Assembly (NCBI GenBank): GCA_009602725.1
Contig: WELB01000051.1
Span: 7,082 to 67,326 of the forward strand
From: Spirogloea muscicola
Lineage: Eukaryota; Streptophyta; Zygnematophyceae; Spirogloeales; Spirogloeaceae
Length of the DNA: 60,245 nucleotides
Reading direction: 5' to 3'
Shown: positions 345 through 55,180 of the stretch, piece after piece
How positions within the stretch are numbered: the first letter of the stretch is position 1
How the letters are laid out: each line of letters starts with the position of its first letter
Notes under the pieces: model-generated
Database searches by the model: none
Told to the model about the DNA's origin: nothing
The model's input: the letters and a program-made list of their open reading frames with translations, nothing else
Made by a program: the position numbers and the translations under genes

Positions 345-665
345 TCCCCAGAGAGAGAGAGAGAAAATCTCGTGTATTTGAAACAAACTACGGCAAGCAC
401 ATCTCAAGATCTACAGAACCCTCAGCAGGATGACCCGCTCAGTAACCACGGGTCAAAACATAAAGGTCGCTAATCGATGTATGAAAACTACATGTCATAT
501 ACGAAGCCATTCTGCCACCAACTACAGCTCGCCCAGCTTTCTGGTGCAAGGCATTAGCCTGAGCACGCTGCAAACAGGCCAAAATTCGTCGTCGCAAGAA
601 CGACAGATATGCAGCTGGCAAGCCCATCTCAGCCGGAAACGCATCTGCACGTCGTGAGTAGCCTA
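345..665 (-). mobile_element. LINE family A 3' end (5'-truncated)
   Basis: Read on the minus strand, this encodes the last ~70 residues of a LINE polyprotein (GLPAAYLSFLRRR, then ANALHQKAGRAVVGGR, ending SDLYVLTRGY-stop). It is closely similar to the longer copy at 54293-55069. The stop codon lies in the loop of an inverted repeat at 431-455 (TGACCCG / CGGGTCA). The 3' tail follows, with a TATTTGAAACAAAC segment shared with 1950 and 26060. It is a truncated, non-autonomous copy. Confidence 0.75.
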
Positions 666-1935
666 GATTGGCAAAATTCTCCCAAAGAGAGAAAGGCGCT
701 TCCAGGAGACGGCGGTGGCTGGGAGCGGCCAGCCCAGAAAAAAGAATTGACAAGATCCAAAGGGGCCAGATTGTAGTGGGACGGCCGGCCGGCTGATTGG
801 GGGCGAGATGACGGAGTAAGTGACCGCAACGGGCATCCACATTTTGGGTTGTATCATAATTGCTGCAATCAATGCTCACTGCAAAGTTTCACTGCTGGAA
901 GATCAGCGAGCACCATCCAATGAACAGTAAAATGTCCTGGAGATAAGTGGTTATCAAGCTGCAAATGGAGACAAAATGCGTCACATGTTGCTATTGATCC
1001 CCACTGTTGTGTGTCTGCGTAGTCTGTAGTTGCTGCGCATGTCAGATTGTATTTCCTCTGGAACCCTATTTGTAATCATTTAGCACTACTTCTGAAACAT
1101 TTAACTTGAGAGGCAACACATACATAAAGCCCTGCACCACGCTGACATGCCAGCAGTAGCCAACAAGACGTAATTATTGTGACAGAGCTACCGGGGATCT
1201 GGCGGACCATCACCAAGCAGTACAATGCAGCAAGATCTGAGAGCTATCTTTAGGTGCTGAAAAGTGAACGCTGAGGAACAAGATGACTATGCGCTTTTGT
1301 ATTCACGTGCAAGATCATCCTGGCATGGAGGCTGATCTTATGCAATGCGTTAAGGTGTTACTGAGGTCATCCACACACTCTCGTCTGCCCAGTATCTCGT
1401 TGATGCAAGTCATCCTTCTCTTTGACACAGAACATTACTATACATGACAGAGGTGCAAAGCAAGGATGTGATCAACAGTGCACCTCGAGACAGCTACTGT
1501 GACAGGTCAAGAACGAAGAAGAAGACAACTTCATTGATCTCACCCATGACGTCCAATCTGTGTAGTCAATGTCGCAGTGTAGACAGTGGTACCACCACAA
1601 GAAAGAAGAGAGAATCTTCCAGTAGAGGGCGATGGCTGTGGAAGGGCCCTGGCACCTTGCGGTGCTCCTCAGCTCGTCAAGCGTTGACTGCCTGTATGCA
1701 AATACCAACAATAAGTGGAAAGGAGTATGAGTAATCTCATGGAGCACTTGACAAAGAGAAGGCAAATGTGCACCAGAGAAGAAAGGCAAGCGCAAACACA
1801 GTGTAACTGCATTGTCTTTCCCCAGAACATTTCATCAGCCCAATAAGAATGTGGTTGTAGGAGGTTGCGGTCCAACTTATGAATTCCTGCAGGCCTTGTG
1901 CACCCTTACAGACCAAGCTTGCTTGCACAGGCCCG
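666..1935. other. intergenic, no gene recognised
   Basis: Only short open frames without recognisable motifs are present. A GGCTGG/CCAGCC hairpin near 717-736 resembles the tail hairpins of the local LINEs, so part of this stretch is probably old repeat. I see no other structure. Confidence 0.5.
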
Positions 1936-2085
1936 CGGAAAAGATTTCGTGTATTTGAAACAAACGAAGGCCAAAGGCCAAGTACAAAGGCAAGCACATC
2001 TAAAGACCTACATAATCTACAGCAGATTGACCCGCTCAGCAACCACGGGTCAAAACATGAAGGTCGCTAGTCGATGCCTGAATAC
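1936..2085 (-). mobile_element. LINE family A 3' tail with hairpin
   Basis: The minus strand carries the last codons (ISDLHVLTRG-like region), the inverted repeat TGACCCG/CGGGTCA at 2028-2052, and a 3' tail containing a GGCC-AAA-GGCC hairpin and the TATTTGAAACAAAC segment. The loop of the main hairpin differs by one base from most copies (a C where others have T), while both stem arms are unchanged. It abuts the Copia remnant that starts near 2088. Confidence 0.7.
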
Positions 2086-2088
2086 TAG

Positions 2089-2433
2089 ATGTATAGAGGC
2101 AGAGTACATGGCTTCTACTGCAGCAGCAAAGGGGCAACCTGGTTGAGAAGACTACTTCAAGAATGTGGGTTTCTCTCTTCATCTGGTGCAACTACTCTGT
2201 TTAGTGATAGGCAAGGCAGTATTGCATTGATCAAGAATCCTGTCTACCATGCCCGTACCAAGCATATAGAGATACAACATCATTTTGTTAGAGAGAAAGT
2301 AGAAGAAGGAGTCATCAGAATGCAGTATTGCAGTGATACTAATATGACTGCAGATATTCTGACCAAGGGGTTGCCTAAGCCCAAGTTTGATAGATGTAGA
2401 GATCTACTAGGTTTAGCTGATTCACATATTTAG
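2089..2433 (+). pseudogene. Ty1/Copia RNase H C-terminal remnant
   Basis: The 114-residue frame reads as the very end of a Copia-type pol. It has an EAEY-like start (IEAEYMAST in the overlapping frame at 2092), SDRQGSIALIKNP, the near-invariant KHIEIQHHFVRE block, and the ADILTKGLP motif close to the stop. Integrase, RT and most of RNase H are missing upstream, and the first ~20 residues are split between two frames, so this is a dead 3' fragment. Just after the stop, a purine-rich GTGGGAGTG followed by TGTTGA looks like a polypurine tract and LTR start. Family assignment is from the motifs; inactivity is inferred from the truncation. Confidence 0.85.
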
Positions 2434-2439
2434 TGGGAG

Positions 2440-2700
2440 TGTTGATTATATAAATATGGTGAATCAGTGGGTGGGTAGAATCACTCACTACGCCTATTCT
2501 TCTATGCCGATGAGAAACTCCCTAGATAAGGGGAGGCCCCAGCAGGGCGCATTATTGGCCCAAACACTCTTGTGGCTCTGTGTGCGGCTAGGCGAGGCGC
2601 TGGATGCGAGACAGCTCTGTGTGCGACGAGACAGCGCTGTGTGCGCGACGACTCTGTGTGCGGTCAGGTGAAGCTGGGTGCTCGCCGACTCTTTGTGACC
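2440..2700 (+). repeat. putative Copia LTR-like stretch
   Basis: It begins TGTTGATTATATAAATATGG directly after the pol stop and purine tract, which is where a 3' LTR would start. It contains a TATATAAATA box-like sequence. No matching second LTR and no clear CA end were found in the window, so the right boundary is arbitrary. Confidence 0.35.
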
Positions 2701-2874
2701 ATGTCTGCATCTGCGCCTAGACGAGGACGGTCTGCTGGTCCTCCGACATCACGACAAGAAGTGGCTGTGAGACAGCAAGGACAGGTACAGAACGTAGATC
2801 GAGAACAGCAAGTTCAGGCTGCAGAGCAAGATAGGCGAGGACAGGTGGAGCAGGATCACTTTCAAGATGTCAGA
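2701..2874 (+). pseudogene. possible gag-like N-terminal fragment
   Basis: An ATG at 2701 opens a polar, Arg/Gln-rich frame (MSASAPRRGRSAGPP, then VRQQGQVQNVDREQQVQ) running into the LINE fragment near 2875. Its place after a putative LTR would suit the beginning of a gag, but there is no zinc knuckle and no recognised primer binding site. This is positional inference only. Confidence 0.25.
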
Positions 2875-2976
2875 TACGAAGCCCTTCTGCCACCAACTAG
2901 AGCTCGGCCAGCTTTCTGGTGCAAGGCATTAGCCTGAGCACGCTGCAAACAGGCCGAAACACGTCGTCGCAAGCGC
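2875..2976 (-). mobile_element. LINE family A fragment lacking its 3' hairpin
   Basis: The minus strand encodes ANALHQKAGRALVGGRRASYLTS, nearly identical to residues close to the C terminus of the copy at 54293-55069. It stops before the SDLYVLTRGY end, and the join to the upstream segment near 2875 is abrupt. Confidence 0.65.
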
Positions 2977-2994
2977 CCCCGCGGGGGGCGCTTG
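2970..2994. repeat. perfect inverted repeat, 11-bp arms
   Basis: CAAGCGCCCCC and GGGGGCGCTTG are exact reverse complements separated by GCG. It lies exactly at the edge of the LINE family A fragment. It could form a very stable hairpin or cruciform. Confidence 0.8.
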
Positions 2995-3234
2995 TTGGTT
3001 GGAACGGGCGGGGCTGCTTGGACATCAGAAAAATGGCGCGAGGCCGCCTTCAGGCGGGCACTGTGTTGGCGTGATATGGTCCCCCATTCTTATAATGCGC
3101 GCCTTCCTTGCCTTGGATCGTTACCAATCACCGCTTTGGCGAGCAACCGCTGGCTGGCAATTCCTGAGCTCGGCATCAGGCCGCACCTGCAATGGCGACG
3201 CCCTCCCGCCGCGAGGCCAGAAGCGCCTCCAAAT
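2995..3234. other. no gene recognised
   Basis: Moderately GC-rich sequence between LINE fragments. Two overlapping short open frames lack motifs and are probably chance. Confidence 0.5.
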
Positions 3235-3545
3235 GGAATGCGTGTATATTAAGAGATGGGGAGGCCATGTGTGGCCAAGTACATAGGCAAGCACATTGGA
3301 CAAATGTACGTCACCTGCTGCTAAGATGGCCCGCTCAGTAACCACGAGTCAGCACATAGAGGTCGCTAGCTGACGCTCGAATACCGGACGGCAATTGACT
3401 AGCTCTTGTGCCAGCAGCTAAGGCTCGACCAGCTTTCTGATGCAGAGCATACGCCTGAGCTCGTTGCAGACAGGTTGACACTCGACGTCGCAGAAATGAC
3501 AGATAGGCTGCCGGCATACCCATCTGGGCTGGGAGCATATCCTCG
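3235..3545 (-). mobile_element. LINE family A 3' end with diverged hairpin
   Basis: The minus strand encodes AYLSFLRRRVSTCLQRAQ, then ALHQKAGRALAAGTRAS, then SASDLYVLTRGY-stop. The 3' hairpin region at 3327-3352 keeps most pairs, with one G.U wobble and one mismatch. The tail contains GGCCA-TGTG-TGGCC near 3262, one of the GGCC hairpins. Confidence 0.7.
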
Positions 3546-3549
3546 CGTC

Positions 3550-4086
3550 GTGCATATCCCAGACTCGCTATGTTCTCGAGGAAGCGCCGGGCCCTGCGCT
3601 GCTGAGGCGCGCCGGCGGCGAGAGAGGGAGTCCGGGCGCTGCCAGTGGCGGCCTTTCGGCCCGTTTGACCTTGTTTCTGGGCTGGCCATTCAAGCCCCGC
3701 CCCCTTTTGAAGAGCTCACTCATTGATAGCTGACCAAGCCTCACAGCTGCCGCTCGCACCCGCTCGTCGTTCTGCTGCGCGGTCATTGAACCCCTCTGCA
3801 CCTTCTCTTCCTCTTCTTCTGCGCTTGCTCCAAAGCAGAGCTCCATACCGTCTGGAGGAGCGCACTGTTATCTCGAGCCATCGTGGTGAGGTCAAGCACA
3901 GCTTCAGCCCTTCTTGGTTCATGCAGGAGAAGGGGTGCACCAGGTATTTCTCTTCCAACAGCAACAGAGTAAGGGAAAAACCTCGTCAATTGACAAGGTG
4001 CACACCTACGTGCTCAGTGGCAGTCCCACTGTACAAAGAGGGCCACTATACAAGCGGATAGATACGACACAGAACACAGTTGACAT
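3550..4086. other. LINE-tail remnant and 3' flank of next gene
   Basis: Positions 3670-3720 contain the GGGCTGG / AGCCCC tail unit followed by GAAGAGCTCACT, also seen at 21150-21195. The remainder up to 4086 has no recognisable coding sequence and is the downstream flank of the minus-strand gene ending at 4087. Confidence 0.45.
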
Positions 4087-5796: not shown

Positions 5797-6568
5797 GCCC
5801 GACGCCGAAAGCCTACATAGGCCGCCAATGCCGCCGCCGCCGCCACCGTCGCCGTCGCTGCCGGCAGCGGCCGAGCGGCCTAAGTGGCGTCAGGCCAGAG
5901 GAGACAAGCTCAGGACTTGCTGCAGCGGTCAATGGCATACGCGTTGCATCTGCGTGCCGGTCGCGCTTGGGCTGCAGCCTCTGGCTGCAGACGGGAATGG
6001 AGTGTGTACTGAGTGGAGGGCCTGAGTGGCCCAGTACAAGGCAAGCACATTGTCAAATGTACATAACCTGCAGCTAAGCTGACCCGCGCAGTAACCACAC
6101 GAGTCAGGGGGACTCGCTACCCGGAGACCAGTTTCTCTGACCAGCGCTGCTCAATGAGAAGCGATCTTCAAAATGACGGATGCTGAGCACCAGTGGCCAC
6201 TTGAGTTGCCGTGTGCTTTAGCTATTTCTGTGCTTGTTTTCCTTAGTGCTTCCCCTGGCCCCTTCTCGTCCTTTGTTCATTCTTTTCTGGGCTGGCTTTT
6301 CCAGCCCCTATCCTCGATGGGCGAGCCCTTCTTCTTTAGCGCTTTTCTGGCCCCTTCGGACCTTCTTCATTCGTTTTCTGGGCTGGCGTATCGCCCTCTA
6401 CTGGAAGAGTCCTCCACACCTCAGAACGGGGCCTCAGACACTACATCTGCTCATCTACGGAACGGTTTGCGGATGCCCCCAGGACCGGCTGGGCCCGCTG
6501 AATCAGCCATATGGTGGAGTCTATTGCCGGACACGCGCAGGAAGAGGCGCTCGCTTCGTGACTTGGCC
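5797..6568. mobile_element. LINE fragments between two divergent genes
   Basis: 5940-5990 (+) is a short LINE C-terminal piece (LHLRAGRAWAAASG-like). 6000-6110 (-) is a family A tail with a GGGCC-TGAGT-GGCCC hairpin near 6018 and the main 3' hairpin at 6079-6106, with an enlarged loop. 6240-6440 (+) is the TTAGCGCTTCC tail unit, including a GGGCTGG-CTTTT-CCAGCCC hairpin near 6290. These pieces occupy what would be the shared promoter region of the two flanking genes. Confidence 0.6.
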
Positions 6569-10222: not shown

Positions 10223-13200
10223 CTATTCGTAGGGCTGCTCCCCTTTCGGCCTCGGATGTGGGCTGTCGGCAAGGACAAGCAGGCCTTGGGTCTTGGGAGC
10301 CTGGAGCCAGGCCTTGACGGCGTCACCGGAGCTGGCCAAGGAGCCCGAGTTGGCGGCCATCTCCGTAAACGGGCTGCTCATGGCCCTCAACTCGGTCTCA
10401 ACTGCGGCCTTCACTTGCGAGTCCCCTGTCTTGCTGTGCTTGCCCCACCCCGTGATCACGCGCACTTGGTCAGGAGTAGCGTCTGTCCACTGCACACGTA
10501 CACACTCAGAGTTTGCTTGATTAACTTCATATCACATGTCAGTCCACATAAAACCTCAGTGGTGAGTAATTCCATCAAGAGCCACATGTGTGTCCAGCAA
10601 AAATAAGTGAACAAGTGCCCATTACAGATTTAAGCTAATATTGTAGCTCACCTGCCAACCAGCCTGCAGCTCTTCAAGCCAAGCATGGAGGAGAGACAAG
10701 GCAGCCCCCACAGAGAGGTCGTGCAGGTCCAACGACCACTCACTGCTGGAGTATGACAGCTGCTTCTCTGGGTAGATCGCATGAGCTCTAGCAGCCGCAA
10801 GCACTCGTACAGCCCTGCCCTTCTGCCCAAAGCTCCACAGTGCATCAATGAGAGCGTTGTAGAAGGAGAGCCGCGGCGCCCATGGCTGCATGTGCACAGT
10901 CTCCAGCATCCTTGCCGCGTTTTCCCAGAGGCCCTTCTCGCCAGATGAACCGATCATCAGGCGGCAGATGGCAAGCTCAAACTCGCTGCCGCTGTGCTGC
11001 AGGCAGTAGAGCAGAGTAAGCGCTTCATCCCACAGTGTGCACCGGCTGCACGCTGCGAGGAGCGCTGCGTATGTGATCAAGTTGGGCCGGCAGTTGCAGA
11101 GTCGCATCTGCTCGAATACGTGGGCTGCTTCCTTGTAGAGACTGCTCTTCCCATAAGCATCCAGAAGTGCAGAGAAAGTGTAGACGTTTGGGTCGCAGCC
11201 CCTCCCCTGCATGTCTTGGAAGATCACTTCGGCCCTCTGATGCAGGCCGAATTTGCCGCAGGAGTCGATGAGAGCGAGATACGTGACTTGGTTTGGCTCG
11301 ATGCTGTGTGCTAGCATGTCTTGGGAAGAGCATGTCAGCTTTGTCATGCAGACCCACCTGCGCACTCACTATTTGTCTTAGTGCCATATACTAATAACAG
11401 TGTGAATGAATTGTCATCTGAAAGGAATATCTGCTCATACATGGAGCTCATGCCCAGAAAGCTAGCATGACCTTCATAGCCAGCCGTTCAAGTGCTCCCG
11501 TTTGCCAGTGCAACCCCAGGCTTCAACTTACCTTGCCATAAGCTGCGATTAACGCAGTATATGTCAGCACATCCCGATGGATGCCCTCAGCCTGCATGCT
11601 CAGGAATGTGGCTTCCGCCCTCTCATGGAGCCCTCCTTTGCCATACGCATCTATCAAGGCAGTGTAAGTGATTGTGTCACATGACATGCCATCAACATTC
11701 ATCTCCTTGGCGAGAGTCTCAGCTTGCTGATAGAAACCCAGTTTCCCACAGGCATCAATGATTGTGTTGTAGGTCACCTGAATGCTCAACAAGGAAACAG
11801 AACTGTGAGATTGGGTCGTCCTCTCAGGAATGCCTGACATACCCACACGCCCCATCAGTATCCACCCTGGCAAGAGACACACCTCACACACTCTCCTCTA
11901 CAAGCTCAGCATCTCCTCTTAGCATCAATTATTCTGTGGCTTGTTCCTAGTCAGAGGTGGATGGTGTTCACCAGGAAACAAGTCAGACTGCCTGGACTCT
12001 GAAGTTGCTGATTTATACTCACCACATTAGGCTGCACTTCTTCGTCGAGGCGCCCACTACGCATATCATGGAGGACATTGACAGCAGCCTCCACTTGGCC
12101 CTCCCGGCAAAGCGAGTCGATGAGGACGTTATATGTCACCACATTAGGCTGGCACTCTGGGCCAAGCCCATTCCTCTCCTTGCGCATGTCGAAGAAGACT
12201 TCAATAGCAGCATCATACAGTTGTCCTTTGCAAAGAGCACCTATGAGGGCGTTGCAAGTGACCTGGATGATATGCAAGGTTCTGTTATACAAAAGATGAT
12301 CCAGATTACCAAAGCCTAATAGAGCCTGAACTCTAACCCTGAACCCTGACCTTCAACCCTGAATGCATGCTGACCCTCTAGGCATGAGGCCTGTTGAGTA
12401 CCCGGAGCTGAGCAGCATTCCTGAAACTAAACCCCGATCCTATCATGATGAAGTAGCTTCACGGATCATGCAAGTGAACTCAAGAGAATGTCCGACCTAC
12501 AACAACATCTCTGAATGGAGTGAGACTCTGTGCTGGAGACTGCAGACAAAGCTTTGGCCCGCTGCGATGAAACCTGCACAAGTGTCACTTACAGTGTTGG
12601 GTTGGCAATCTGGCTCCTTTGAGCTCTTCATATGCTCAAAAACGGCAAGCGCATCATCAAACCTCCTCGCTCTGCCATAAGCATTGATGAGCGCCGTGTA
12701 TGTGTAGTGGTTGGGCTCACAGCGCTCCAGGAGCATCTCCTGGAAGAGCAGGGTCGCAAGATCTGGCTGCCGCTCTCGCCCCAAGAAGCCAATCAAGCTA
12801 GTGTACAGCCTCGAGTTGTGTACGTGCCAAGGCTGCTTCTTCATCCAGTGGAACACCTGCATGCATGCAGGCAGAGGACGTTCTTTCAGCAAGATGGTTG
12901 ATGGGCGAGTTGCTGTGCATTGTCCCTCTCAAAGCTTATGCAGCTACACATCAGACGTACTTGCTCGTCAATTCTTCCTCAATGTCAGTATATGTCACTA
13001 AGTTCAAGTGTATGTCAATGTGTGTCAGACCAATAAATCTTGAATATCGCAGTTGCTGAATACCACAATGATGGTCCGGCATTATAGCAACCAAACCCAG
13101 TGGATGACCTGGACAGGAGTGGGATGCAACTGGGCTGCTCTTGGCGCCAGCGAGGACAGCGAGGCGAAGTAACCCACCTCCAGCGTGCGCCGCCAGTCGT

Positions 13201-14005: not shown

Positions 14006-14029
14006 GGCGCAGCCGCAGGCTGCTATAGG

Positions 14030-14085
14030 GCTCGCGCTTAACCCTAAGCCTCAAACCCTGAACCCTAGACCCTAACCCTAGCCGC
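14030..14085. repeat. degenerate telomere-like tract upstream of PPR-SMR
   Basis: Several CCCTAA / ACCCTGAACCC units lie 25-80 bp upstream of the PPR-SMR start codon. On the gene's strand they read as AGGGTTT/TAGGG motifs, like plant telo-boxes found in 5' regions. The function is inferred from position only. Confidence 0.55.
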
Positions 14086-16089
14086 GAGTCCGCGGCTCCG
14101 AAGACCATCCTCCACCCTGTTGCCTGTACGCCGAGGCCGCCGCTGCCGCCGCCGCGCAACGTCCTGGCGCCAGTGGCAGCTGGACTTATGGATCCTGGCG
14201 GATCCCGCCGCAACCTGCACGGCGTCTCCGGAGCGGCTCCTGTTGCTTGCAGACGGCGGCTGTCCGTCGCAGCCGGAGGCAAGGCCGCCGGGGCGCACTA
14301 AGAGAGACAGGGAGAAGGCGCGCGCTGCGCATGAAATTGGAAGGGAGGCCAATTCTAGCCTTACAGTTGTCCTGTTTACTGGGTAATGAGCCAGGGTAAA
14401 GGGGACACTACTGTCCCCGAGTGAGCACATGCATATCTGACAAGCTATATGGAGGAGCCAAACCACCACCACGGAAGCCACTAGCCTGGGCTAACGCACG
14501 CCCAGCACGCTGGTGAATCGCGAGTGCCTGGGAGCGCTGCAGACTCAATGATAGCCGCATTCTACTAGCATGCAACGGTGGCTTGCGGGACGCTAGGATG
14601 GCCTAAGCTACCCGCCCGACTACGTCGGCGAGCATCAACATGCAGTGCCAGGCGATGGAGGAGGGAAGATGAACAAGACAACTCTGTCAGGGCAACACAG
14701 CGACGAGTACAACGGCAGGGGGACTCGAGGACTCTGTTCATTCCTCGGCTTACAGTTTGTTCCCTGAAAGACTGATCGTTGTTCCGGAAGCGGGCTTCTC
14801 AGGTGGCTTCTCGCCGCTGCGATGCAGTCTAGTTTGTCATGGGGAGCGAGAAGCGCTGTTAGCGTTGTGAAGGGGCTTCTTCCGCCGATCACAGTCTCGG
14901 CTTGTCAATCCAACCTGTCAACCTGATTGTTACGGAGGCGTACCTAAGATCAGCTTCAACCCACCTTGCTGGCCAGGCTGTGGGTAGAGCAGCACTACTT
15001 CGACTGCCCCCGCTAATACTACCTCCTACCAGCCGCAACCGACCACTTTGGTTGCATATGGCATCGTCTGCATACCTACTCGAGCACTTCACTATGCTTT
15101 GTAAGAGATATACAATGGGAGAATAAGCTATTCGTTGACATGCGCTTGCTGCGAGCAATCTGTCGTTCTTGCGCCATGGTGTGTCAGCCAGTTGGCAGCG
15201 AGCTCAGTGCTCATGCTTTGCACTAGAGAGCAGGATACCTTTTAGCTGATGGCAGAAGGGCTTGAAACTTTCCGTCCTGTATTCGGTCAGTGTATGTATA
15301 AGAAATTTCTGCTTGCTAACCCGTGATGACTTCACGGGTCGACCTAGCAGCAGGTGATGTACATCTGTAGTTTTCCTTGTCTTTGAACCTGGCGGCCACT
15401 CAGGCCATCCATCACTCAAAACTCGCTTTCTTACCAGGCAATTCTGGTAGTCATGCCAACCCAGTCAACTCCCTACCTCTAGCCAGAGGACTGAGACTTG
15501 TTGAGCGCTGGTGATGTTCTTCTTCTTCCTCGTAAGCTGAGCTGAGGATCTCAGCTTGCCAGAAGCTTCGAGCCACTGATTAAAGTGCAGTACTACCGCA
15601 TGGCTGACCCCCACAGCTGCAAGGCAATCTCAGACAGTCACCTCTCTCGATTGCAGCGGCTGACTGTCTGACTTGGGCCCCTAGTCGTTGATAGTTCCTA
15701 CGCCTGTGCCACACTCCAAGTACAACCTACCAAACAGCACCAACTAGACCAGCCAGGAGCTTTCCGAGGACACCAGCTCACGTGACCTCGCGTTTCTAGA
15801 AACGGACTGCCTTGCTCTACCAGAAGACAATGAATATAAAATCAAATTTCAGAATGCAGAGAGCAATAGCACCCCTGGCTAGCTAATAGCTCGATGGGCA
15901 TGGACTGCAACTGACTTATCGCAGACTGCAGCAGATTAACCACTCATCAATACTCCAACCTCCCCCACCTTGACAATGGGCAAAAATGTACATTCAAAGA
16001 GAATTATGTGCTCTCCTGTCTCTCCATGTAACAGGGGCCTCCCCCATGCAACCTCTCTAGGCGGTACAATTTTCATATGACACAGAAGA
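14086..16089. other. intergenic with decayed LINE family A copy
   Basis: 14290-14380 carries the GAAGGCGCGCGC...GAGGCCAATTC repeat also present at 31421-31460 and 55210-55350. 14890-15375 (+) is a badly decayed family A copy: 14930-14990 still reads LIVTEAYLRSASTHLAGQAVG, matching the endonuclease region of the copy at 54650. A remnant of the 3' hairpin remains at 15319-15339. From 15376 to 16089 I see nothing recognisable; it is the 3' flank of riboflavin synthase. Confidence 0.55.
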
Positions 16090-19157: not shown

Positions 19158-20164
19158 TGTATGCGCCGCCGTCTTGGCTTGCCATCCCTGTGCTTGGCAG
19201 GGGTGACCCAATGTGAATGTGGGCTTATTGAGCATCATGCATTGCTCATGGGTGACCACATGCTCAGGTGTGCCAAAGGCAGTGAGCGCACGGGCTCCCA
19301 CAACCTCCTACGTGACGCCATGTATGGCATCGTCAAGGAGGCGGGATATCAAGTGGCGTTGGAGAGCACTGGGGTGATGCCCATCCTCCTCCGCAATGGG
19401 GTCCCTCGGACGAGGCGTGTCGATCTGGTCGGCGTCCCCCTGGGAGGTGGCAAGCGGCTCCTCATGGACGTTGTCCTCACCGACAGCTTCCGGACGAAGG
19501 GCCCCATTACTTCTGAGACCGGCTACGCTGTGAAGAAAGCGGCTGCTGATATGAAAGAATCGGCTGTGAAATGCCAGCCAGATGCATACAGGTGTTCATG
19601 ACGGAGCCAAAGGCTAGGCAGACAGGGCGCCCTCAATATCCCCGTGTCAGCAGTAGGAAGTCAGATGAGCTGAGGGGAGGAAGAGCAACCCCGCTGTGAA
19701 GGTGGCCGAACAGAAGAAGCTGCACAAGTACAAGGACCACCCGGCGGGTGATACCTTTTACCCCCTGGCCATGGACATCCATGGGTGTTACGGGGGTCGG
19801 TGGTCCTCGTTACTTTCGCTGCTGGCCTCTCAAGCTGACCAGCGGCGCCGGGAGCAAGGTGCTGCCCTTCCCGGTGGCTCGGTGCCTTTGGGTCTGGTGT
19901 CCTGCTACCGTATGCGATTGTCTATGTCCCTGCAGCGCTCCCAAGCGCTTGCTTTGCACCGCCGCGCTGGTCGCGCCCTTGCAGCAGCCTCTGGCTTGCG
20001 CAGCGGGGTTGCTCTTCCTCCCCTCAGCTCATCTGACTTCCTACTGCTGACACGGGGGTATTGAGGGCGCCCTGTCTGCCTAGCCTTTGGCTCCGTCATG
20101 AACACCTGTGTGCGTCTGGCTGGCATTTCACAGCCGATTCTTTCATATCAGCAGCCGCTTTCTT
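19158..20164 (+). mobile_element. LINE family B, 5'-truncated copy
   Basis: Begins at the codon matching residue 993 of the intact ORF at 50429-54142 (MRRRLGLPSLCLAGV). It encodes the CCHC-like motif, the endonuclease motif VDLVGVPLGGGKRLLMD, and the C terminus SDFLLLTRGY-stop at about 20063. The 3' tail ends ...CAGCCGCTTTCTTC near 20164, the same end as the intact copy, with no poly(A). It differs from the intact copy at only a few sites, e.g. EHH for EHD and AEQ for AER. It is interrupted at 19536-19691. Flanks share TCTATGT-like sequence, a possible 6-7 bp target-site duplication. Confidence 0.85.
19536..19691 (-). mobile_element. nested antisense family B 3'-end insertion
   Basis: These ~156 bp are the reverse complement of the last part of the same LINE family: C-terminal codons, stop and 3' tail, matching 50332-50487. 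The insertion lies within the endonuclease region, between the codons for YAVK and VAE. The 10-bp sequence CGCTGTGAAG flanks it at 19526-19535 and 19692-19701, a target-site duplication. Part of that duplication overlaps the insert's own ends, i.e. microhomology at both junctions. Confidence 0.88.
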
Positions 20165-20600
20165 CTATGTGCCTCAGACCTTGTCCATTCCTTTGGGCTG
20201 GCCTCTCACAAAGAGCCTCTCACAGCCACCAGTCAATCTGGCCGCGCCTTCTCCATGTGCTGACTCGTGGTTACTGAGCGGGTCAGCTGCTATTCTATGT
20301 GCTGACTCGTGGTTACTGAGCGGGTCAGCTTAGTAGCAGGTGATGTCCATTTGTCAGTGTGCTTGCCTTCGTACTTGGCCACACAGGCCCTCCATCACTT
20401 GAGATACACAATGCATTCTCCTCTAGCTATTCCGACGTTCCCCGGCTCATACAGTGCACTTGCGGGCAGGCCGCGCTTTGGCTTTTATTCTTGGGCTGCT
20501 GCTTCTGGGTCACGTCGGGGTGCCTCTTTTCCAGCTGCAAGTTACTCCGACTTGCGGCTGCTGACTCGGGGTTACTAAGCTCCCCTTCGCCGTAGTCTCT
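20165..20600 (+). mobile_element. LINE 3'-tail cluster
   Basis: Contains two tandem copies of the family A terminal hairpin (20259-20287 and 20301-20329), then a family A tail with GGCC-ACACA-GGCC near 20380. Next comes another LINE C-terminal piece at 20430-20578 ending SDLRLLTRGY-stop. All are short 5'-truncated remnants placed head to tail. Confidence 0.6.
20259..20329 (+). repeat. tandem duplication of LINE terminal hairpin
   Basis: GCTGACTCG and CGGGTCAGC form a 9-bp stem (one U.G pair in RNA) around an 11-base loop containing the LINE stop codon. The unit is present twice with a 42-bp period. Confidence 0.8.
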
Positions 20601-25935: not shown

Positions 25936-26455
25936 AGGGCATATTGGGAGAATGTTTTCTTTCTTCGCTTTCGAACTTTGCTCATTCCCTTTTTCTGGGC
26001 AGGCCAATCACAGCCATTGAGAAAGTGCTCGCCCATTGAGGAAGAAGAGATTCCGTGTATTTGAAACAAACGTAGGCCAATTGAGGATAGGGGCTGGAAA
26101 AAACCAGCCCAACAAAGCATGGACAAAGCACGAGAAGGTGGCCAGGGGAAGCGCTAAGAAAAATAAGCACAAACAGAAACAAAGCAGCAACGAATCACTC
26201 AGTAACCCCTGCTAACAAGCAGCCGCAGATCAGAGATGCTAGGCTCCTGCAAGTGGGTCCCCTGGCCACAGCCATCAGAAGAAGAAAGAGCTCGCCCATT
26301 GAGGATAGGGGCTGGAACAGCCAGCCCAAAAAAGAATGAGCAGAGTACAAGAAGCCCAAGAAGAAGGGGGCCAGGCGAAGCACTAAGGGGAAGCACTAAG
26401 AAAGAAGCACACAAGAAGAAAAGCAGCTACTAACTACTCAGCCATCGCCCTCTAC
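25936..26455 (-). mobile_element. LINE 3'-tail fragments, two in tandem
   Basis: On the minus strand, tail units with TTAGCGCTTCCCCTGG appear near 26150 and 26385. Each is followed by a GGGCTGG...CCAGCCC hairpin (near 26095 and 26308) and ATGGGCGAGC. 26199-26245 encodes an SDLRLLVSRGY-like end, almost the same as at 75-110. A TATTTGAAACAAACG segment lies near 26058. Confidence 0.6.
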
Positions 26456-40570: not shown

Positions 40571-40591
40571 GGCGCTGCTGTGAGCGCGAGT

Positions 40592-40593
<2 letters not shown>

Positions 40594-40638: not shown

Positions 40639-40737
40639 GGCCTGGGGACGCCACGTGGATGCTCCGAGAGGCCCTCAGTCAGGGCGCCTCTTGAAGCGCC
40701 ACGTGGCGGCGCGGCCGGAGGAGGAGGTGGGGGAGGC

Positions 40738-40925
40738 TTAGGGGTTAGGGCTTAGATCTGCCACTTGGCCGCGCTTTCCTTTCGATTGCCGTTCGGTTTT
40801 CGGGCACCAGTTAGCGACCTCTGTTGTGCTGACTCGTGGTTACTGAGCGGGTCAGCTTGGCAGCAGGTGATGTGCGTCTGTCCATGTGCTTGCCTCCGTG
40901 CCTAGCCTCTCAGGTCCTCCATAAC
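40738..40925 (+). mobile_element. LINE family A 3' end after a telomere-like unit
   Basis: 40738-40760 reads GGGGTTAGGGCTTAG, a short telomere-like motif. From 40780 it matches family A (CGATTGCCGTTC, TTAGCGACCTCT). The terminal hairpin is at 40828-40856 (9-bp stem GCTGACTCG/CGGGTCAGC), followed by the GCAGGTGATGT tail. It lies in the promoter side of sulfiredoxin. Confidence 0.7.
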
Positions 40926-47265: not shown

Positions 47266-47700
47266 AGCCACAGCCTTCCCTTTCGGGCTGGCTGTTCGTC
47301 ACAGCCCCTGTCCCCTGCTGACTCGCTCGCGCAGGTGTTTCGAATGCGCCTTGCCTCCAGCGGTACTTGGCCCGTCAGCTTGGCAAGCTGGCTGAGCTCT
47401 AGCTGCTGCCTTTTCCATGTTCTAGCTGCTGCCTCTGGCTTCGCCAAGGGGAGTGCTTGCCGGCAACTAGTCATTCAGACTTACAGCTGCTTACTAGGGG
47501 TTACGAAGTGACCATCCTTCGTGGCACTTGCTTAGCTTTCTAAACACTTTGCTTTAGCGCTTTCTGCTCCTTCGAACCTTGTCAGTGCATTTCGGCATGG
47601 CTTTCACACCCCTCGCCCCCTGTGAATGAGCTTAATCCTCTCACAGCCATTGCCTTACATTGGAAGTGCTCTTTCTTCCTACAACCTAGTAGAGACGCAA
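47266..47700 (+). mobile_element. LINE tail fragments
   Basis: TTCGGGCTGGCTGTTCGTCACAGCCC near 47281, a C-terminal remnant near 47390-47502 (GCTGCCTCTGGCTTC to CTAGGGGTTACGAAG), and a second tail at 47555-47680. The second resembles the 20640 and 21150 copies. All are short and decayed. Confidence 0.5.
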
Positions 47701-48730: not shown

Positions 48731-50130
48731 CTAGGTACTTGTGGCGGCTTGGCTTGTGCCAACTGATGACGTGTCCTCCACAGCCATCCGAAAGCTAGCT
48801 TCGTCTTCCAACCAACCAGCGGCGGCTCTGGAAGACGAGGCACAATCCAAGTGGTCACCATTCCGCTGCCATACAGTTTTGTCCTCATCGGCGCTGTGAT
48901 TGTCTCCCCCGAACATCTGGACGCGCTCCTCCGCTTTCTCCATCTCCAGCTCCCTCAGCGCGCGCCTGCCATACACTGTCGCCGTGATGGCCACACTGAC
49001 TGCCACCAGTAGTCCGACGCACTCATACACAATCTCCACTGGCGTCATCTTCCGCCCACTGCGCTGGGTGAGGTCCGCGAGGAGCTTTCCACTGCCACCA
49101 AGAAGCAGCGGGACAAAGATGAGACTGGAATGACTTGATGGTTGCTTTGAGCTGAGCAAGAGCTCAATAAAACAAGCACCTCCATAACCAGCTTGCTCAC
49201 CAGTACAAGGTCAAAAAGGCCTCAGGGACCATGCCGAGCATGGAGCCGGCGATGTAGGGACCGTAGGGGATGCGTGTCGCAGTGACGGCGTAATTGAAGA
49301 GCGGGTAAGGGAACGGGGAGACGCGCAGGATGGCTATGAAGCGGAACTGCTGCCACCACCCGCCAGCCTCGGCGAGGCGAAGCACTGCGGCCTCCTTGGG
49401 CCGCTTGGCCAGCCACGCCTGAACGCGGGTGTGGAGGAAGTGGCGGCCGAAGTAGAAAGGCAGCGTCTGGCCGGCCAGCGTGCCGAGCATGATGAGGGGG
49501 AAGCCGCCGGCGTAGCCAAACGTGGCGCCGAGGAGCCACATGACGGGTGTCGACGGCACGAGGAACGCCGGGAAGAGCGCCAAGCAGAGCACGCCGACCG
49601 CCGCCTGCCATGGCCGGCTCAGCACCCGCGCCTCCCAGTCGAGCAGCGGGATCACGACCTACGCCCATTGCAACCCCACAATAAATCGGTGCTTGATAAA
49701 TGAGTGGCGTCAAGTCCCTGCTCAGTCATATGGTAAAGATGGCGCTTTGGCAACTGTGGGAGCAGACCCAGTTCGTCACCTGCTGCAGGAAGATAGGGCC
49801 GACGACGAGGACGAGTGCCGCGGCGGCGAGGAGGAGCAGGGCGGCGAGGAGCGAGTAGCCGGCGCAGCGCCAGAGCTGCCACAGGGCCGGCGGCGGGCGG
49901 ACGGGCTCGAGGAGCTCGAAGGCCACGAGCGCGGGGTCGCCAACGGGACCGCCGGGCATCTCTGGCAGGAGCGGCGGCGCCCGCGGAGCGCTGCTGCCTG
50001 CCTGTGCTGCAAGCTCATGAGCCCAACTGACATCAAAAACCCTAACTCCTAAACCCTGAACATAACCAGAGTCATGCCAGCTTGCAGAGCTCTGTGATGG
50101 CGCAGCGCCCACTCGGGTCGTCTCGGACAA
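48731..50130 (-). CDS. VTT-domain (TVP38/TMEM64, SNARE-associated Golgi) membrane protein
   Basis: A multi-pass membrane protein of the DedA/VTT superfamily; relatives scramble lipids or act in Golgi and ER membranes. Minus-strand exons: exon 1 ending at 49780 (ELLEPVRPPPALWQLW, then a helix LLAALLLLAAAALVLVVGPI, ending FLQQ), exon 2 49658-49201 and exon 3 49091-48731. Exon 2 encodes IPLLDWEARVLSRP, FLVPSTPVMWLLGATFGY, TLPFYFGRHFL, FRFIAILRVSPFPYPLFNYA and YIAGSMLGMVPEAFLTLY. Exon 3 encodes GKLLADLTQRSG and the helix ECVGLLVAVSVAITATVYGR, then a polar tail. This matches plant TVP38-like proteins along the length. The N terminus upstream of about 50000 is unclear: the frame to 50130 crosses a telomere-like TTTAGGAGTTAGGGTTT (about 50040-50056). 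A LINE 3' end lies only 200 bp beyond. Confidence 0.85.
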
Positions 50131-50329
50131 GACGTTGGTCGAGAGCTCGGGCCCCGGCTACTGCGACCACCGTGGGCTGCGGCGGAGGCCGCAGTGACGG
50201 CAAGCCCGAGTCTGCACGACGAAGCTGCCAGCCCGCCCTGGGCTGTGAGTCAGGCGGGGCGATGGAGGCGAGGATGGAGGGACTGGGGTGTGAGAGAGTG
50301 AGAAAGCGAAGGTGAGGTCGAGGCAAAGA

Positions 50330-53300
50330 AGAAAGCGGCTGCTGATATGAAAGAATCGGCTGTGAAATGCCAGCCAGATGCATACAGGTGTTCATGACGG
50401 AGCCAAAGGCTAGGCAGACAGGGCGCCCTCAATACCCCCGTGTCAGCAGTAGGAAGTCAGATGAGCTGAGGGGAGGAAGAGCAACCCCGCTGCGCAAGCC
50501 AGAGGCTGCTGCAAGGGCGCGACCAGCGCGGCGGTGCAAAGCAAGCGCTTGGGAGCGCTGCAGGGACATAGACAGTCGCATACGGTAGCAGGACACCAGA
50601 CCCAAAGGCACCGAGCCACCGGGAAGGGCAGCACCCTGCTCCCGGCGCCGCTGGTCAGCTTGAGAGGCCAGCAGCGAAAGTAACGAGGACCACCGACCCC
50701 CGTAACACCCATGGATGTCCATGGCCAGGGGGTAAAAGGTATCACCCGCCGGGTGGTCCTTGTACTTGTGCAGCTTCTTCCGTTCGGCTACCTTCACAGC
50801 GTAGCCGGTCTCAGAAGTAATGGGGCCCTTCGTCCGGAAGCTGTCGGTGAGGACAACGTCCATGAGGAGCCGCTTGCCACCTCCCAGGGGGACGCCGACC
50901 AGATCGACACGCCTCGTCCGAGGGACCCCATTGCGGAGGAGGATGGGCATCACCCCAGTGCTCTCCAACGCCACTTGATATCCCGCCTCCTTGACGATGC
51001 CATACATGGCGTCACGTAGGAGGTTGTGGGAGCCCGTGCGCTCACTGCCTTTGGCACACCTGAGCATGTGGTCACCCATGAGCAATGCATCATGCTCAAT
51101 AAGCCCACATTCACATTGGGTCACCCCTGCCAAGCACAGGGATGGCAAGCCAAGACGGCGGCGCATAGCATCGCAAAACAAAGCATTCTCCATCCGCAAG
51201 CCCGCATGCAAAGGCAAAGCGCGGAGCCACTCAGACGCTCCCAGAGACGAAACAGATAGGAGCCGAGCCTGGCCTCGAGCATCTCCTTGGAGGAGACTCC
51301 GGAGATGCTCCAGTGGTTGCTCGTCTGCAGCACGGGTAAACCGCGATTGAGCCTTGACATCAGAAACGTCAGCCCAGGCAGCAAAACTAACAGGCTCATT
51401 TACCAGAGGCGGGTATGCGGCAAAGAGGTCCTGTTGGCATGCTTTGAGAGTCACTTGGAAAGGCAGACTCCCCTGAACCACGGTACTGATGTGAGGCGCC
51501 AACACACGTTGTTGCCCAAGGAGGAATCGTCCAGATATGGACGAAGCCACCTGGGCCCAGCAGCCAAGGTACGCTGGTCTGCACAAGCGGACCAAGGGGC
51601 GACAACCAAGCCCACCGAGACGGATGGGCAGCGTACATTGCACCAGTGCTGCTGGGGACTGCTCTAGAAGTGGGTGAGCAATCATGTCAGCTAGGCATCG
51701 TTGGAGCCTGACATCTATGGATGCATAGACCTCATCCATGGTAACCGAAGGTGGGACCGTTCTTAAGAGGTAACACGGCCGCTGTGCCACACTCCTGGTC
51801 AAAATGGCCACTGCCAACTGAGAGTCCCCGAGGGTGGGGAGCTCTGGCAGGACCTGCATATATCCTTGGAGACGAGCAAGGACAGCACCCTCCGAGAAAG
51901 ACGGGTCCCCTACAGGCACTCCCAAGATCTTCAAACCGCCCTCTGGTGTCTGACAAGATGTAGGCAACGAGGGAAGGAGGGAAAGAGGGATGCCATTGGG
52001 GGACCAGGCAGAGCACTTGGCAGTACTTATCCCAAGCCCGATGAGCTGGAGCTGGTGCTGAAGCGTGCCAAAAGCTCGCAGCACCTCCTCTGGGGGGCCG
52101 AGGAGCGTAGTATCATCCGCGTAACTCGGGAGGAGAACGCCAGGGTGAGCGCTCGCCGTGTTGCGCAAAGCACGGTGATGCGCCAGAGCAAAGAGAAAAC
52201 CACCCATGGGATCACCTTGACGTGTCCCCGTCTTTGACTGCAAAACAGCCAAAGAAGTCCCTGCCCCCCACAACAATGCAGATGGCGAGCCATACATGCA
52301 GCGGAAGTGAGGGAGGAGGGTGGGAAAGTACTGCCTTAGCTCCTCGGCGATAACCTGCCGATCCACGGAGTTGAAGGCGTTCTGTACGTCCACGCTCAGG
52401 GCCAGCCAATGGGGGTTTACATCCAGTGCCGCTCGTACCCCGTGCACCAGGGTCTCAGCGCCAGCACGCATCCCAGCCCCAAACTGGTGGGGATGGAAGT
52501 GCGCCTGGGCATCGTCCTGGATCTGCATGATTAGGGTGCGCCCCACAAGGCGCGCCAGAACCTCCCCCATCGAGATAGGACGCACTCCGCCGTTGTCCTT
52601 CTGCAAAGCAATGAGATTGCTTGTGCAGAGGACTGCGCCTACACGATGGGTGAGGTGCCCACGCGCAACATGTTGCGCGACCCTATGCAACAGATCGAAA
52701 TCCTCCGAGTCCTCCTCCCCATATAACTCCCGCAAGTGCTCAAAGAGCATGCCAGATGGACCCCCGGCGACTGCCTTGCGGCTACTCACAATCGCCCGAC
52801 GGAAGACAGCCGGGTCCAGGTCCACCGGTTCAGCAGGCATGAAGCTCTCCATCCATGTATCTAATCTTCGCGGGGCCGAAGGATGGAGCTGCTCGAGTGC
52901 GGCCAAGGTTGCCGCATCATGCGGTGCTGGTGTTGAGGGCTCCAAGGCTTGGGCAGCCCTGCCAAGGTCGCCGGCTCGCCCATATCGGATGGCACGTCGT
53001 TTGCCCGCCTCCTTAATATCGGATTCCGACGTGGTGGGCCGATAGTTGGCTTGCGCAAGTTGCGCAGCCGCTTGGTGCTTTGCAAGTAGCAGCTGCCACT
53101 CTCCACCTTCAAACAGGTGGAGGCGCAACAGCAGCTCCGTGCGACCTGCCTTCCCCTGCGGCAGGCGACCAAGCAAGAGTCGCGGAAACAACACAAACAC
53201 AGCCCATGCAGCCTCATCCTCGCTGTCACGAGCCAGACGTGTCAGGAGGGGCCGAAGGGCTCTCCGTATGTGGGGCCGGGCCCAATACGGGATGTGTCGT

Positions 53301-54250
53301 AGGAGCTGCGCGTTGGTCGTCCGCAGGATCTCGGAGACGTCCACGCTCTCCGCCCACCGCCAGTGTTCTGCCGTAGGCCCTGGTGGTGGTGGTGGCATCG
53401 CCCCTCTTGTAGGGGCTCTGCGAGCCCGAGCGGTGGCGGATGCCTCTGCCTGCTGCGCCTCTCTGTTAGCCAAACGCACGCAGGCCCGCTCGTGCGAGCT
53501 CAAACCCACCTTGTTGGCACATCGCCGCCGGCAGAGCCGGCAGCGGAGCTCAACAGGCGGGCAAGAGGTTGCCTCCGCAGGGGGCCGGAGGTCCTCTTGG
53601 CCCTGCTCCCCTTCCCCAGGTGCAGCTGATACAGCGGCATCGCCAGCCACGGGCCCGTCAGCATCACCAGCGCCACTGCCACCACTCGCCGAACCCATGG
53701 CGACAACCACTTCCAAGCGCCGCCTGGCTCCTCCGCTGCGGCGACCTCCCCTCCAAGATGCAGGGGGGTTTGCGGAAGCCGCCTGCCCTGCAGACGCGGG
53801 AGAGGTGCACGGCGTTGGTTGTGGGTGGGGCTCGAAGCCCGTGAGTAGAGCAGCATGAGAAGCAGTGGGAGAGGATACTGGGGGAGGGGGTCCTGTGCCC
53901 CTCTCCATGTTGTCCTCCTCCATGGCAATCTCGGATGATGTTGGGGCCGTGGTTGGGACAGCCGTCTCGTCCATCCCTGGGCCTGGTGGGGCCTGGAATG
54001 AGCGCGTAGCGCAGCAGCTCCTGGAGCTCCGGTGCACTGCTCTCGCAATGGCCGCCAGTGCGGTTGCCTCCCCGGCACAAGTGAGCCGAGGGTTTGATCG
54101 CAGCCGGCCGCGCCAGCTTGTGGGCTGGGCAGCCGGACCCATGTCCCCCGCACGAGGCTGTGCAAAGGAGGTATGTCCGGAGGGTGCGATGACTTCTTGC
54201 GTGGCATGTTGCAGAAAGCGAACTTTCGCTAAGCTTGAGCGCTCCCGACC
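50330..54250 (-). mobile_element. LINE family B, apparently full-length
   Basis: Minus-strand non-LTR retrotransposon carrying one long intact ORF and a ~100-bp 3' tail that ends ...CAGCCGCTTTCTTC without poly(A). The 3' end is defined by the point where it diverges from the copy at 19158-20164 and by the nested insertion. The 5' end beyond the ORF start is not defined; I found no convincing target-site duplication for this copy. It lies just upstream of, and in the same orientation as, the VTT gene. Confidence 0.85.
50429..54142 (-). CDS. LINE polyprotein: zinc finger, reverse transcriptase, restriction-like endonuclease
   Basis: One uninterrupted 1237-residue frame. A Pro/Ser/Ala-rich N terminus is followed by a CCHC zinc finger at 201-221 (CRLC...H...C). 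RT motifs: RPISMGEVLARLVGR (521-535), VDVQNAFNSVDR (584-595, first catalytic Asp), GTRQGDPMGGFLFALA (639-654) and YADD (674-677). A second CCHC-like cluster lies at 1010-1029. Then comes a PD-(D/E)xK-type restriction-like endonuclease, RRVDLVGVPLGGGKRLLMD (1078-1096) with a Lys-rich ERKKLHKYKDH (1120-1130). The last ~55 residues (LQRSQALALHRRAGRALAAA ... SDFLLLTRGY) recur in other families. No apurinic-type endonuclease is present. The layout resembles the R2 group and other early-branching elements that use target-primed reverse transcription. No ORF1 is seen. It appears able to encode a functional protein; activity is inferred only. Confidence 0.9.
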   Translation of the reverse strand: MGPAAQPTSWRGRLRSNPRLTCAGEATALAAIARAVHRSSRSCCATRSFQAPPGPGMDETAVPTTAPTSSEIAMEEDNMERGTGPPPPVSSPTASHAALLTGFEPHPQPTPCTSPASAGQAASANPPASWRGGRRSGGARRRLEVVVAMGSASGGSGAGDADGPVAGDAAVSAAPGEGEQGQEDLRPPAEATSCPPVELRCRLCRRRCANKVGLSSHERACVRLANREAQQAEASATARARRAPTRGAMPPPPPGPTAEHWRWAESVDVSEILRTTNAQLLRHIPYWARPHIRRALRPLLTRLARDSEDEAAWAVFVLFPRLLLGRLPQGKAGRTELLLRLHLFEGGEWQLLLAKHQAAAQLAQANYRPTTSESDIKEAGKRRAIRYGRAGDLGRAAQALEPSTPAPHDAATLAALEQLHPSAPRRLDTWMESFMPAEPVDLDPAVFRRAIVSSRKAVAGGPSGMLFEHLRELYGEEDSEDFDLLHRVAQHVARGHLTHRVGAVLCTSNLIALQKDNGGVRPISMGEVLARLVGRTLIMQIQDDAQAHFHPHQFGAGMRAGAETLVHGVRAALDVNPHWLALSVDVQNAFNSVDRQVIAEELRQYFPTLLPHFRCMYGSPSALLWGAGTSLAVLQSKTGTRQGDPMGGFLFALAHHRALRNTASAHPGVLLPSYADDTTLLGPPEEVLRAFGTLQHQLQLIGLGISTAKCSAWSPNGIPLSLLPSLPTSCQTPEGGLKILGVPVGDPSFSEGAVLARLQGYMQVLPELPTLGDSQLAVAILTRSVAQRPCYLLRTVPPSVTMDEVYASIDVRLQRCLADMIAHPLLEQSPAALVQCTLPIRLGGLGCRPLVRLCRPAYLGCWAQVASSISGRFLLGQQRVLAPHISTVVQGSLPFQVTLKACQQDLFAAYPPLVNEPVSFAAWADVSDVKAQSRFTRAADEQPLEHLRSLLQGDARGQARLLSVSSLGASEWLRALPLHAGLRMENALFCDAMRRRLGLPSLCLAGVTQCECGLIEHDALLMGDHMLRCAKGSERTGSHNLLRDAMYGIVKEAGYQVALESTGVMPILLRNGVPRTRRVDLVGVPLGGGKRLLMDVVLTDSFRTKGPITSETGYAVKVAERKKLHKYKDHPAGDTFYPLAMDIHGCYGGRWSSLLSLLASQADQRRREQGAALPGGSVPLGLVSCYRMRLSMSLQRSQALALHRRAGRALAAASGLRSGVALPPLSSSDFLLLTRGY

Positions 54251-54289
54251 GCTCTGACTACACTTCTAGCGGTCACCTCCTACCATCCG

Positions 54290-55180
54290 CCATTGACACC
54301 TTTGCAGCTTTGTTTCTGTTACTTAGCGCTTCCCCTGGCCCCCTTCTCGTACTCTGTTCATTCTTTTTCGGGCTGGTTGTTCCAGCCCCTATTCTCAATG
54401 GGCGAGCACTTTCTTCTTTGGCTAGTCTTTCTCAGCGCTTCCCCTGGCACCCTTCTCGTACTTTGTTCATTCTTTTTTGGGCTGGCCTCCGGGTCTCGGC
54501 GGAGCGCCTCCTTCCCCTTTTTCTACCGTGCAGTCGTGGAAGTCAACGATGTCATGCCTATCACCACGGACGCCCAGGGACGTCATCATCGCTGCACACT
54601 TGACATTGTGGGCGTGCAACCTGGTGGAGGACCACGGGCCCTGGTCGACGTTGTGGTAACGGAGGCGTACAAGGGACCAGCTTCCACACACATCGCTGGT
54701 CACGCAGTGGGCGTTGCAGAACAAAGAAAGCTGCAGCATTACTCCGACTACCCTCAATGCGATCAGCTCCTGCCAGCGGCAATCGACGTCTTTGGTTGTC
54801 TGGGTCCTCATTTCCACACCCTCCTCCAAAACATTGCCAATCTAGGCTACACACGTCGTGCAGATGTGTTTACGGTTGAGTTGGGCTTGCCAGCTGCATA
54901 TCTGTCTTTCTTGCGACGACGTGTTTCGGCCTGTTTGCAGTGTGCTCAGGCTAATGCCTTGCACCAGAAAGCTGGCCGAGCTCTAGTTGGTGGCAGAAGG
55001 GCTTCGTATCTGACATCTAGTATTCAGGCATCGATTAGCGACCTTTATGTTTTGACCCGTGGTTACTGAGCGGGTCACTTTGCTGTAGATTATGTAGGTC
55101 TTTAGATCTGCTTGCCTTTGTACTTGGCCTTTGGCCTTCGTTTGCTTCAAATACACGAAATTTCTTTTTAGTCTGCAGTA
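54290..55180 (+). mobile_element. LINE family A, 3' third with endonuclease
   Basis: 54325-54480 holds two TTAGCGCTTCC tail units with a GGGCTGG-TTGTT-CCAGCCC hairpin. From about 54500 the frame encodes the endonuclease, LDIVGVQPGGGPRALVDVVV then EQRKLQHYSDYP, followed by NLGYTRRADVF, GLPAAYLSFLRRRVSACLQ, ANALHQKAGRALVGGRRASY and SISDLYVLTRGY-stop at 55069. The terminal hairpin is at 55053-55077. The tail has GGCC-TTT-GGCC near 55128. RT and zinc finger are missing. This is the longest family A copy in the window. Confidence 0.8.

Follow-up and report, generated by a model that had tools for sequence, protein, structure and literature searches.

Structured 3' ends have been described for several groups of long interspersed nuclear elements (LINEs). 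In the stringent type, represented in the cited portion of PMC4176376 by eel UnaL2 and zebrafish ZfL2-1 and ZfL2-2, the reverse transcriptase (RT) binds a 3' stem-loop and a structured 3' tail is required. The cited portion of PMC12503042 describes R2 proteins that bind their 3' untranslated region (UTR), a need of R2 for a structured 3' tail, and, for B. mori R2, a folded motif in the 5' RNA that extends into the open reading frame (ORF). Conserved 3' hairpins are also present in the tails of monocot L1-clade LINEs, where the cited portion of PMC3747384 places them at the 3' end, common with short interspersed nuclear elements (SINEs) and accompanied by compensatory changes, and a 3' stem-loop has been proposed for retrotransposition of human L1, in the 3' UTR according to the title of PMC5135761. 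Here, we analyzed a 60,245-nt stretch of Spirogloea muscicola DNA (contig WELB01000051.1, positions 7,082 to 67,326; hereafter the window), in which one LINE family, family A, carries a hairpin (H1) around its stop codon. We see about an even chance that H1 is part of a structured, poly(A)-less 3' end to which the RT of the element itself binds for target-primed reverse transcription.

Family A resembles the stringent-type LINEs in having a predicted stem-loop near its 3' end that favors the sense strand, and the two copies whose ends are marked by duplications, 3327 and 431 (copies are named by the first position of their hairpin), similarly lack poly(A). It differs in that the stem-loop described for those elements in the cited portion of PMC4176376 lies in the 3' tail, whereas H1 encloses the stop codon, and it also differs from the ZfL2 elements, which are assigned there to the L2 clade, in that the RT found here is nearest to R2. 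R2 is the nearest solved relative of the RT of family B, a second LINE family in the window, and in the cited portion of PMC12503042 it likewise has a structured 3' UTR and offers a precedent for an RNA motif that overlaps the ORF. Unlike for R2, however, no ribosomal DNA (rDNA) target is seen for the copies, which lie at scattered sites in one window, two of them with different flanking duplications; because insertion into rDNA was not found, we do not class the element as R2. The monocot L1-clade hairpin is similarly conserved in LINE tails but, unlike H1, is supported by compensatory changes in the cited portion of PMC3747384. Overall, H1 looks like an ordinary kind of feature, a folded LINE tail, in an unusual location. 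A search of open-licence PMC papers with narrow terms, which does not establish absence from print, returned no earlier description of a LINE hairpin on the stop codon.

A hairpin around the stop codon of family A

The window is rich in LINE fragments, part of them nested, and three of its LINE families (A, B, and C, the last known from 3' ends alone) share the C-terminal peptide SD[LF]xxL[TS]RGY*. Family A is the carrier of H1, which has the form TGACYCG-N11-CGGGTCA and spans 25 nt with an 11-nt loop that encloses the stop codon. A search of both strands allowing at most one mismatch identified 13 matches at 7 places, compared to none in 100 dinucleotide shuffles; since the site is close to a palindrome, most of these places were scored once per strand. 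Allowing up to three mismatches yielded 22 matches versus 11.4 expected, and at least 22 were found in 2 of 100 shuffles. Therefore, the loose matches by themselves are weak evidence. All copy counts refer to this one window, which contains nine H1 hairpins at eight loci, with six distinct H1 rows: 431, 2028, and 55053 in subfamily A1, 3327, 6080, 20261, 20303, and 40830 in subfamily A2, and 15317 as the lone hairpin of a diverged A3. Hairpins 20261 and 20303 are not independent, as they are repeated in tandem within a single locus.

All six hairpins called intact in the original prediction were found (431, 2028, 20261, 20303, 40830, and 55053). The 9-bp stem proposed for 20261, 20303, and 40830 is also correct, with GCTGACTCG pairing with CGGGTCAGC, and the C to T difference between the A1 and A2 left arms does preserve pairing as G.U, though in the sense RNA only. 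A TGA in the loop, in frame after LTRGY, was confirmed for 431, 3327, 20261, 20303, 40830, and 55053, but not for 2028, which reads LTRGC; the stop lies inside the loop in all seven hairpins that still have one. Two copies had been described as decayed. This is accurate for 3327, in which one pair is broken (GTCA to GCCA), but not for 6080, in which both arms are intact, the loop has gained 2 nt, TGA has become TGC, and the predicted helix is extended to 13 pairs. The ninth hairpin, 15317, had been overlooked. Its sequence (TAACCCGTGATGACTTCACGGGTCG) is diverged, but the copy has BLAST homology to family A across about 15134-15416 and scored E 1.4e-20 with a tail model whose alignment included this same copy. 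It has lost its stop and folds as an 8-bp stem with a 5-nt loop.

Folding and constraint of the family A 3' end

The consensus fold of eight copies calculated with RNAalifold reached -14.8 kcal/mol, compared to a column-shuffled mean of -5.4, and only 1 of 500 shuffles was as low; the corresponding values were 2 of 500 for the H1 region alone and 3 of 500 for the tail after H1 alone. The antisense consensus folded to just -2.8, and the difference of sense minus antisense was -12.0 versus a shuffled mean of -3.8 (itself below zero because the sense strand is G- and T-rich), which was again matched by 1 of 500 shuffles. The excess on the sense strand thus favors a transcript over a DNA palindrome. 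The alignment used for these tests retained 6080 with a misaligned left arm, and omitting this copy resulted in 0 of 500 for the fold and 2 of 500 for the strand test. Three hairpins are predicted within about 100 nt, with H1 as the most 5', followed by a middle hairpin (HM) and then H2. H1 and HM are both contained in the consensus fold, while H2 (GGCC..GGCC) appears in the single-sequence folds of 6 of the 7 copies that retain the stretch, 40830 pairing in a different register. When each hairpin was folded together with its tail, H1 was part of the best fold in 6 of 8 copies. One HM pair alternates between C-G (four rows) and U-A (three A2 rows), and its covariation score was met by 47 of 500 shuffles, which is suggestive only.

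Because the left arm encodes the LTR of the shared C-terminus LTRGY*, its conservation needs no RNA explanation, and only the right arm, CGGGTCA, is free of coding since it is 3' of the stop. Between the A1 and A2 consensus sequences, 0 of the 7 right-arm sites have changed (1 of 7 when the sequence of copy 3327 is taken instead), compared to 11 of 26 in the next stretch, 3 of 27 in the following block, and 20 of 42 in a last stretch that extends beyond the end of the element and is partly non-element. As a neutral yardstick, copies 55053 and 3327 differ at 23 of 30 fourfold sites and at 35 of 53 codons for the same residue. The original prediction would have failed if the stem both lacked significant covariation and changed at the neutral rate, and the two tests point in opposite directions. 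A neutral rate is not seen relative to the fourfold sites (Fisher p 0.0003 for 0/7 and 0.004 for 1/7, the latter counting the private change of copy 3327), whereas relative to the adjacent tail (11/26) p was 0.04 for 0/7 and 0.18 for 1/7. The UTR after the arm is itself constrained to the end of the conserved block, with 14 of 53 sites changed versus 23 of 30 fourfold sites (p 1e-5).

Both copies that have lost the stop, A3 and 6080, have longer hairpins. A3 carries 9 changes in 29 nt, and random changes retained its folding energy with P 0.002-0.012, while random changes reached the energy of 6080 with P 0.016, irrespective of whether the A2 flank or the real flank of the copy was used. These longer hairpins could reflect selection on a lineage mobilized in trans, whose coding part may decay freely, or else template switching across an imperfect palindrome.

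Evidence for and against a role of the pairing

The alternative that survives best is that the pairing is functionless, the left arm being kept by the peptide and the right arm by a linear UTR signal or recent shared descent, with complementarity arising by chance. The covariation that the original prediction would lead one to expect was not significant in H1: 1 of 9 pairs was two-sided and 203 of 500 shuffles were as high (8 of the 9 hairpins were counted, with 6080 excluded because of its 2-nt gain). Conservation of the right arm did not significantly exceed that of the UTR up to where the block ends (14/53, p 0.14; p 0.05 if the last stretch is added, 34/95), and the arm therefore partakes in a strong constraint on the whole 3' UTR. 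Families B and C have the same peptide, yet no clear stop-codon hairpin was found in either when compared to shuffled UTRs (p 0.29, 0.29, and 0.63 for three B copies; p 0.04, 0.09, 0.33, and 0.32 for four C copies), whereas in the same test p was 0.001-0.08 for eight of the nine A hairpins and 0.38 for 6080, in which the stop was set one base off. Thus, H1 looks like a family A trait. Lastly, the best folds of 431 and 3327 with their tails contain an alternative pairing in place of H1, although 431 does form H1 when folded with other ends.

Additional results weigh against the proposed 3'-end role of H1. Sliding its partner by one column produced 2 two-sided pairs rather than 1, with six distinct rows, and 209 of 500 shuffles were as high as a 12-pair version of H1. 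Removal of copy 431 raised the result of the tail test to 21 of 500 shuffles, and the A3 hairpin taken alone is slightly more stable in antisense. In 40-nt scans, H1 had z values of -2.2 and -2.3 in two A1 copies, compared to -2.4 for ORF-internal windows, and a scan of the A2 copy 3327 yielded no signal at H1; furthermore, H1 was chosen after the fact. Flanking duplications were sought by script at four copies only (6080, 40830, 3327, and 431), and 6080 and 40830 had no flanking repeat of at least 6 nt. Nevertheless, functionless pairing does not account for the sense-strand fold signal or for the retention of the A3 stem despite its many changes, and the contrast between 0 of 7 right-arm sites and 23 of 30 fourfold sites is not explained by shared descent alone. 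On balance, we hold it to be rather unlikely, but a serious contender.

The longer hairpins of the two stop-less copies raise another alternative, namely that mutation, not selection, maintains or sharpens H1, with template switching during replication or reverse transcription correcting an imperfect palindrome and thereby perfecting dead copies. Such a process would fit A3, whose hairpin was lengthened by clustered loop changes and whose adjacent changes at positions 18-20 of 29 are the expected copy of the left arm, as well as with 6080, whose helix was lengthened by the 2-nt gain and a single substitution. Since it explains neither why A1 and A2 share an unchanged right arm nor the sense-strand bias of the 3' end, we regard template switching as improbable. 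An action of H1 on the termination of translation or on the mRNA, such as providing stop-codon context or serving as a stability element, is more doubtful still, because the stop does lie in the loop wherever a stop is retained, but 6080 and 15317 keep the hairpin though the stop is lost, and a ribosome at the stop codon, its footprint being large enough to cover a 25-nt hairpin there, would probably melt all of it; the effect on termination included in the original prediction is unsupported.

Insertion ends, reverse transcriptase, and a possible mechanism

Copy 3327 is flanked by GGCGCTTC and copy 431 by TTTCTCTCT, the latter duplication being weaker evidence because it is pyrimidine-rich and of low complexity. 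Neither copy ends in poly(A), and both terminate close to or within an AATACAC motif, 107 nt (3327) and 72 nt (431) past the stop; H2 was removed from 431 by a deletion. The duplications and the defined 3' end without poly(A) fit target-primed reverse transcription. The RT domain of family A itself was not found in the window, and the kind of RT it encodes is therefore judged from family B, whose ORF matches Pfam RVT_1 (E 3e-17) and has no other Pfam match up to E 0.1. Among PDB structures, the best match to the family B RT was an R2 protein (E 1e-6), followed by another RT (2e-5) and L1 ORF2p (4e-5). At the C-terminus of family B, a D-x14-D pattern and a Cys/His cluster recognized by eye are candidate motifs of a restriction-like endonuclease; the AlphaFold model of this region was too poor for use (pLDDT 35).

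As regards a partner SINE with the same tail, two short pieces of family A were noted, namely 6080-6106, where the copy comprises just H1 and the tail, and 37 nt of A1 tail within a family C copy; no SINE body was seen in either. The latter piece is located at 26042-26080 in the family C 3' UTR and is flanked by CCTCAAT repeats, perhaps representing a truncated insertion of very small size. The A1 copy of 2028 contains an insert at 2093-2864 with ACATCT at each join, in which a Copia-like RNase H end, long terminal repeat (LTR)-like sequence, and a possible gag start were recognized by eye, arranged as in a one-LTR circle. At 19160-20293, a family B copy truncated at its 5' end interrupts an A2 copy immediately ahead of H1, with TCTATGT at each join, and includes an internal inverted segment (19532-19696 versus 20001-20165 inverted, 98%) that looks like twin priming. 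In a second A2-like coding stretch at 55582-55845, homology stops before H1 at the same point as for 19160, a possible insertion hot spot.

Families B and C have a common 3' UTR hairpin, GGGCTGG..CCAGCCC, present at 16 places with E < 1e-7 in a search with a covariance model for which 13 of these places were the input. The rows originated from 58 places from three left-arm patterns, chosen by eye, of which 17 were aligned; 54479 (truncated) and the B near-duplicates 19580 and 20117 were excluded initially, and t3679, t6380, and t20195 (misaligned or broken right arms) and then t47285 were dropped later. The stem core is invariant in the 13 rows, which were selected by the left arm, while the loops are variable, and no covariation was found among these rows (281 of 500 shuffles as high). 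H2 was considered as a homolog of this hairpin and rejected, as the B/C covariance model matches none of eight family A tails up to E 10. A stop hairpin as a rule common to families A, B, and C was likewise rejected by the B and C p values. The two borderline C copies, 94 and 26210 (p 0.04 and 0.09), are mutually related and could pair as GTTAC-TGA-GTRAT, the stop forming the loop, at 98-110 (+) and about 26194-26206 (-); when the copy at 94 is folded singly, its best structure does not include this hairpin.

Outside the window, scans of viral contigs and genome contigs identified no related locus; three of these scans returned 1, 27, and 62 matches to the peptide pattern, none confirmed as related. 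Rfam and tRNA scans of the window were also negative, with no Rfam family at gathering score. Host-like genes are located at 10622-11365, 49200-49658, and 57900-58382 (PPR repeats, a VTT domain, and an EF-hand-associated domain), in keeping with eukaryotic DNA. The features of the LINE families are listed in Table 1.

Table 1. Hairpin copies, 3'-end parts, and ORFs of the LINE families in the window
Feature	Position	Strand	Remarks
H1, subfamily A1, 7-8 bp	55053..55077	+	TGA 55067-55069 in loop
HM, middle 3' UTR hairpin GTAGGTC..GATCTGC	55094..55111	+	from RNAalifold and pair counts; position read on sequence
H2, 3' UTR hairpin GGCC-TTT-GGCC	55126..55136	+	read on sequence; single-sequence fold
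3' end motif AATACACGAAA	55150..55160	+	no poly(A) seen
H1, subfamily A1	431..455	-	HM with mismatch, H2 deleted; TTTCTCTCT repeat on both flanks
H1, subfamily A1	2028..2052	-	Tyr codon is TGC
H1, subfamily A2, one pair broken	3327..3351	-	GGCGCTTC repeat flanks copy; stop to repeat 107 nt
H1, subfamily A2, helix lengthened (+2 nt, TGA to TGC)	6080..6106	-	homology begins near hairpin base; no flanking duplication found
H1, diverged copy A3, stop lost	15317..15341	+	8-bp stem, 5-nt loop
H1, subfamily A2, extra tandem copy	20261..20285	+	9-bp stem
H1, subfamily A2, A2 3' UTR downstream	20303..20327	+	9-bp stem
H1, subfamily A2	40830..40854	+	9-bp stem; no flanking duplication found
Family A1 ORF, 3' part	54539..55069	+	ends SDLYVLTRGY*
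Family B ORF, 1278 aa, reverse transcriptase	50429..54265	-	ends SDFLLLTRGY*; 44% identical to family A in the C-terminus alignment
B/C 3' UTR hairpin GGGCTGG..CCAGCCC	735, 6289, 20658, 21151, 26110, 26327, 30942, 31560, 31661, 47285, 50376, 54370, 55497, others

If H1 does serve the element's own RT, then the sense transcript would form H1, HM, and H2 at a short 3' end of about 100 nt that lacks poly(A), and since the 3' UTR is very short, this fold would extend back into the last codons. The left arm would double as coding sequence for LTRGY* and as half of H1, with the right arm, CGGGTCA, supplied from past the stop. The RT would bind the 3' RNA structure, including H1, to start target-primed reverse transcription, as in stringent LINEs and R2. 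Binding of the family A 3' RNA by the RT, and a need for H1 itself, are what we infer. The recognition role put forward in the original prediction is thus plausible, given the sense-strand fold and the duplications without poly(A) in 2 of 4 copies, but nothing singles out H1 from HM and H2. A bolder proposal is that H1 couples translation to template capture, such that ribosomes would melt H1 and it would refold after release beside the new protein, allowing the RT to bind its own mRNA post-translation as a cis-preference device; we consider this a long shot.

Should H1 be merely one hairpin of a structured UTR, it would constitute an ordinary new example. If H1 is itself the recognition structure, a single sequence would combine a C-terminal peptide, a stop codon, and a retrotransposon recognition structure. 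The preference of LINE proteins for the RNA that encodes them is still an open problem, and with a recognition hairpin on the stop codon, a mechanism coupled to translation could be tested directly by synonymous changes.
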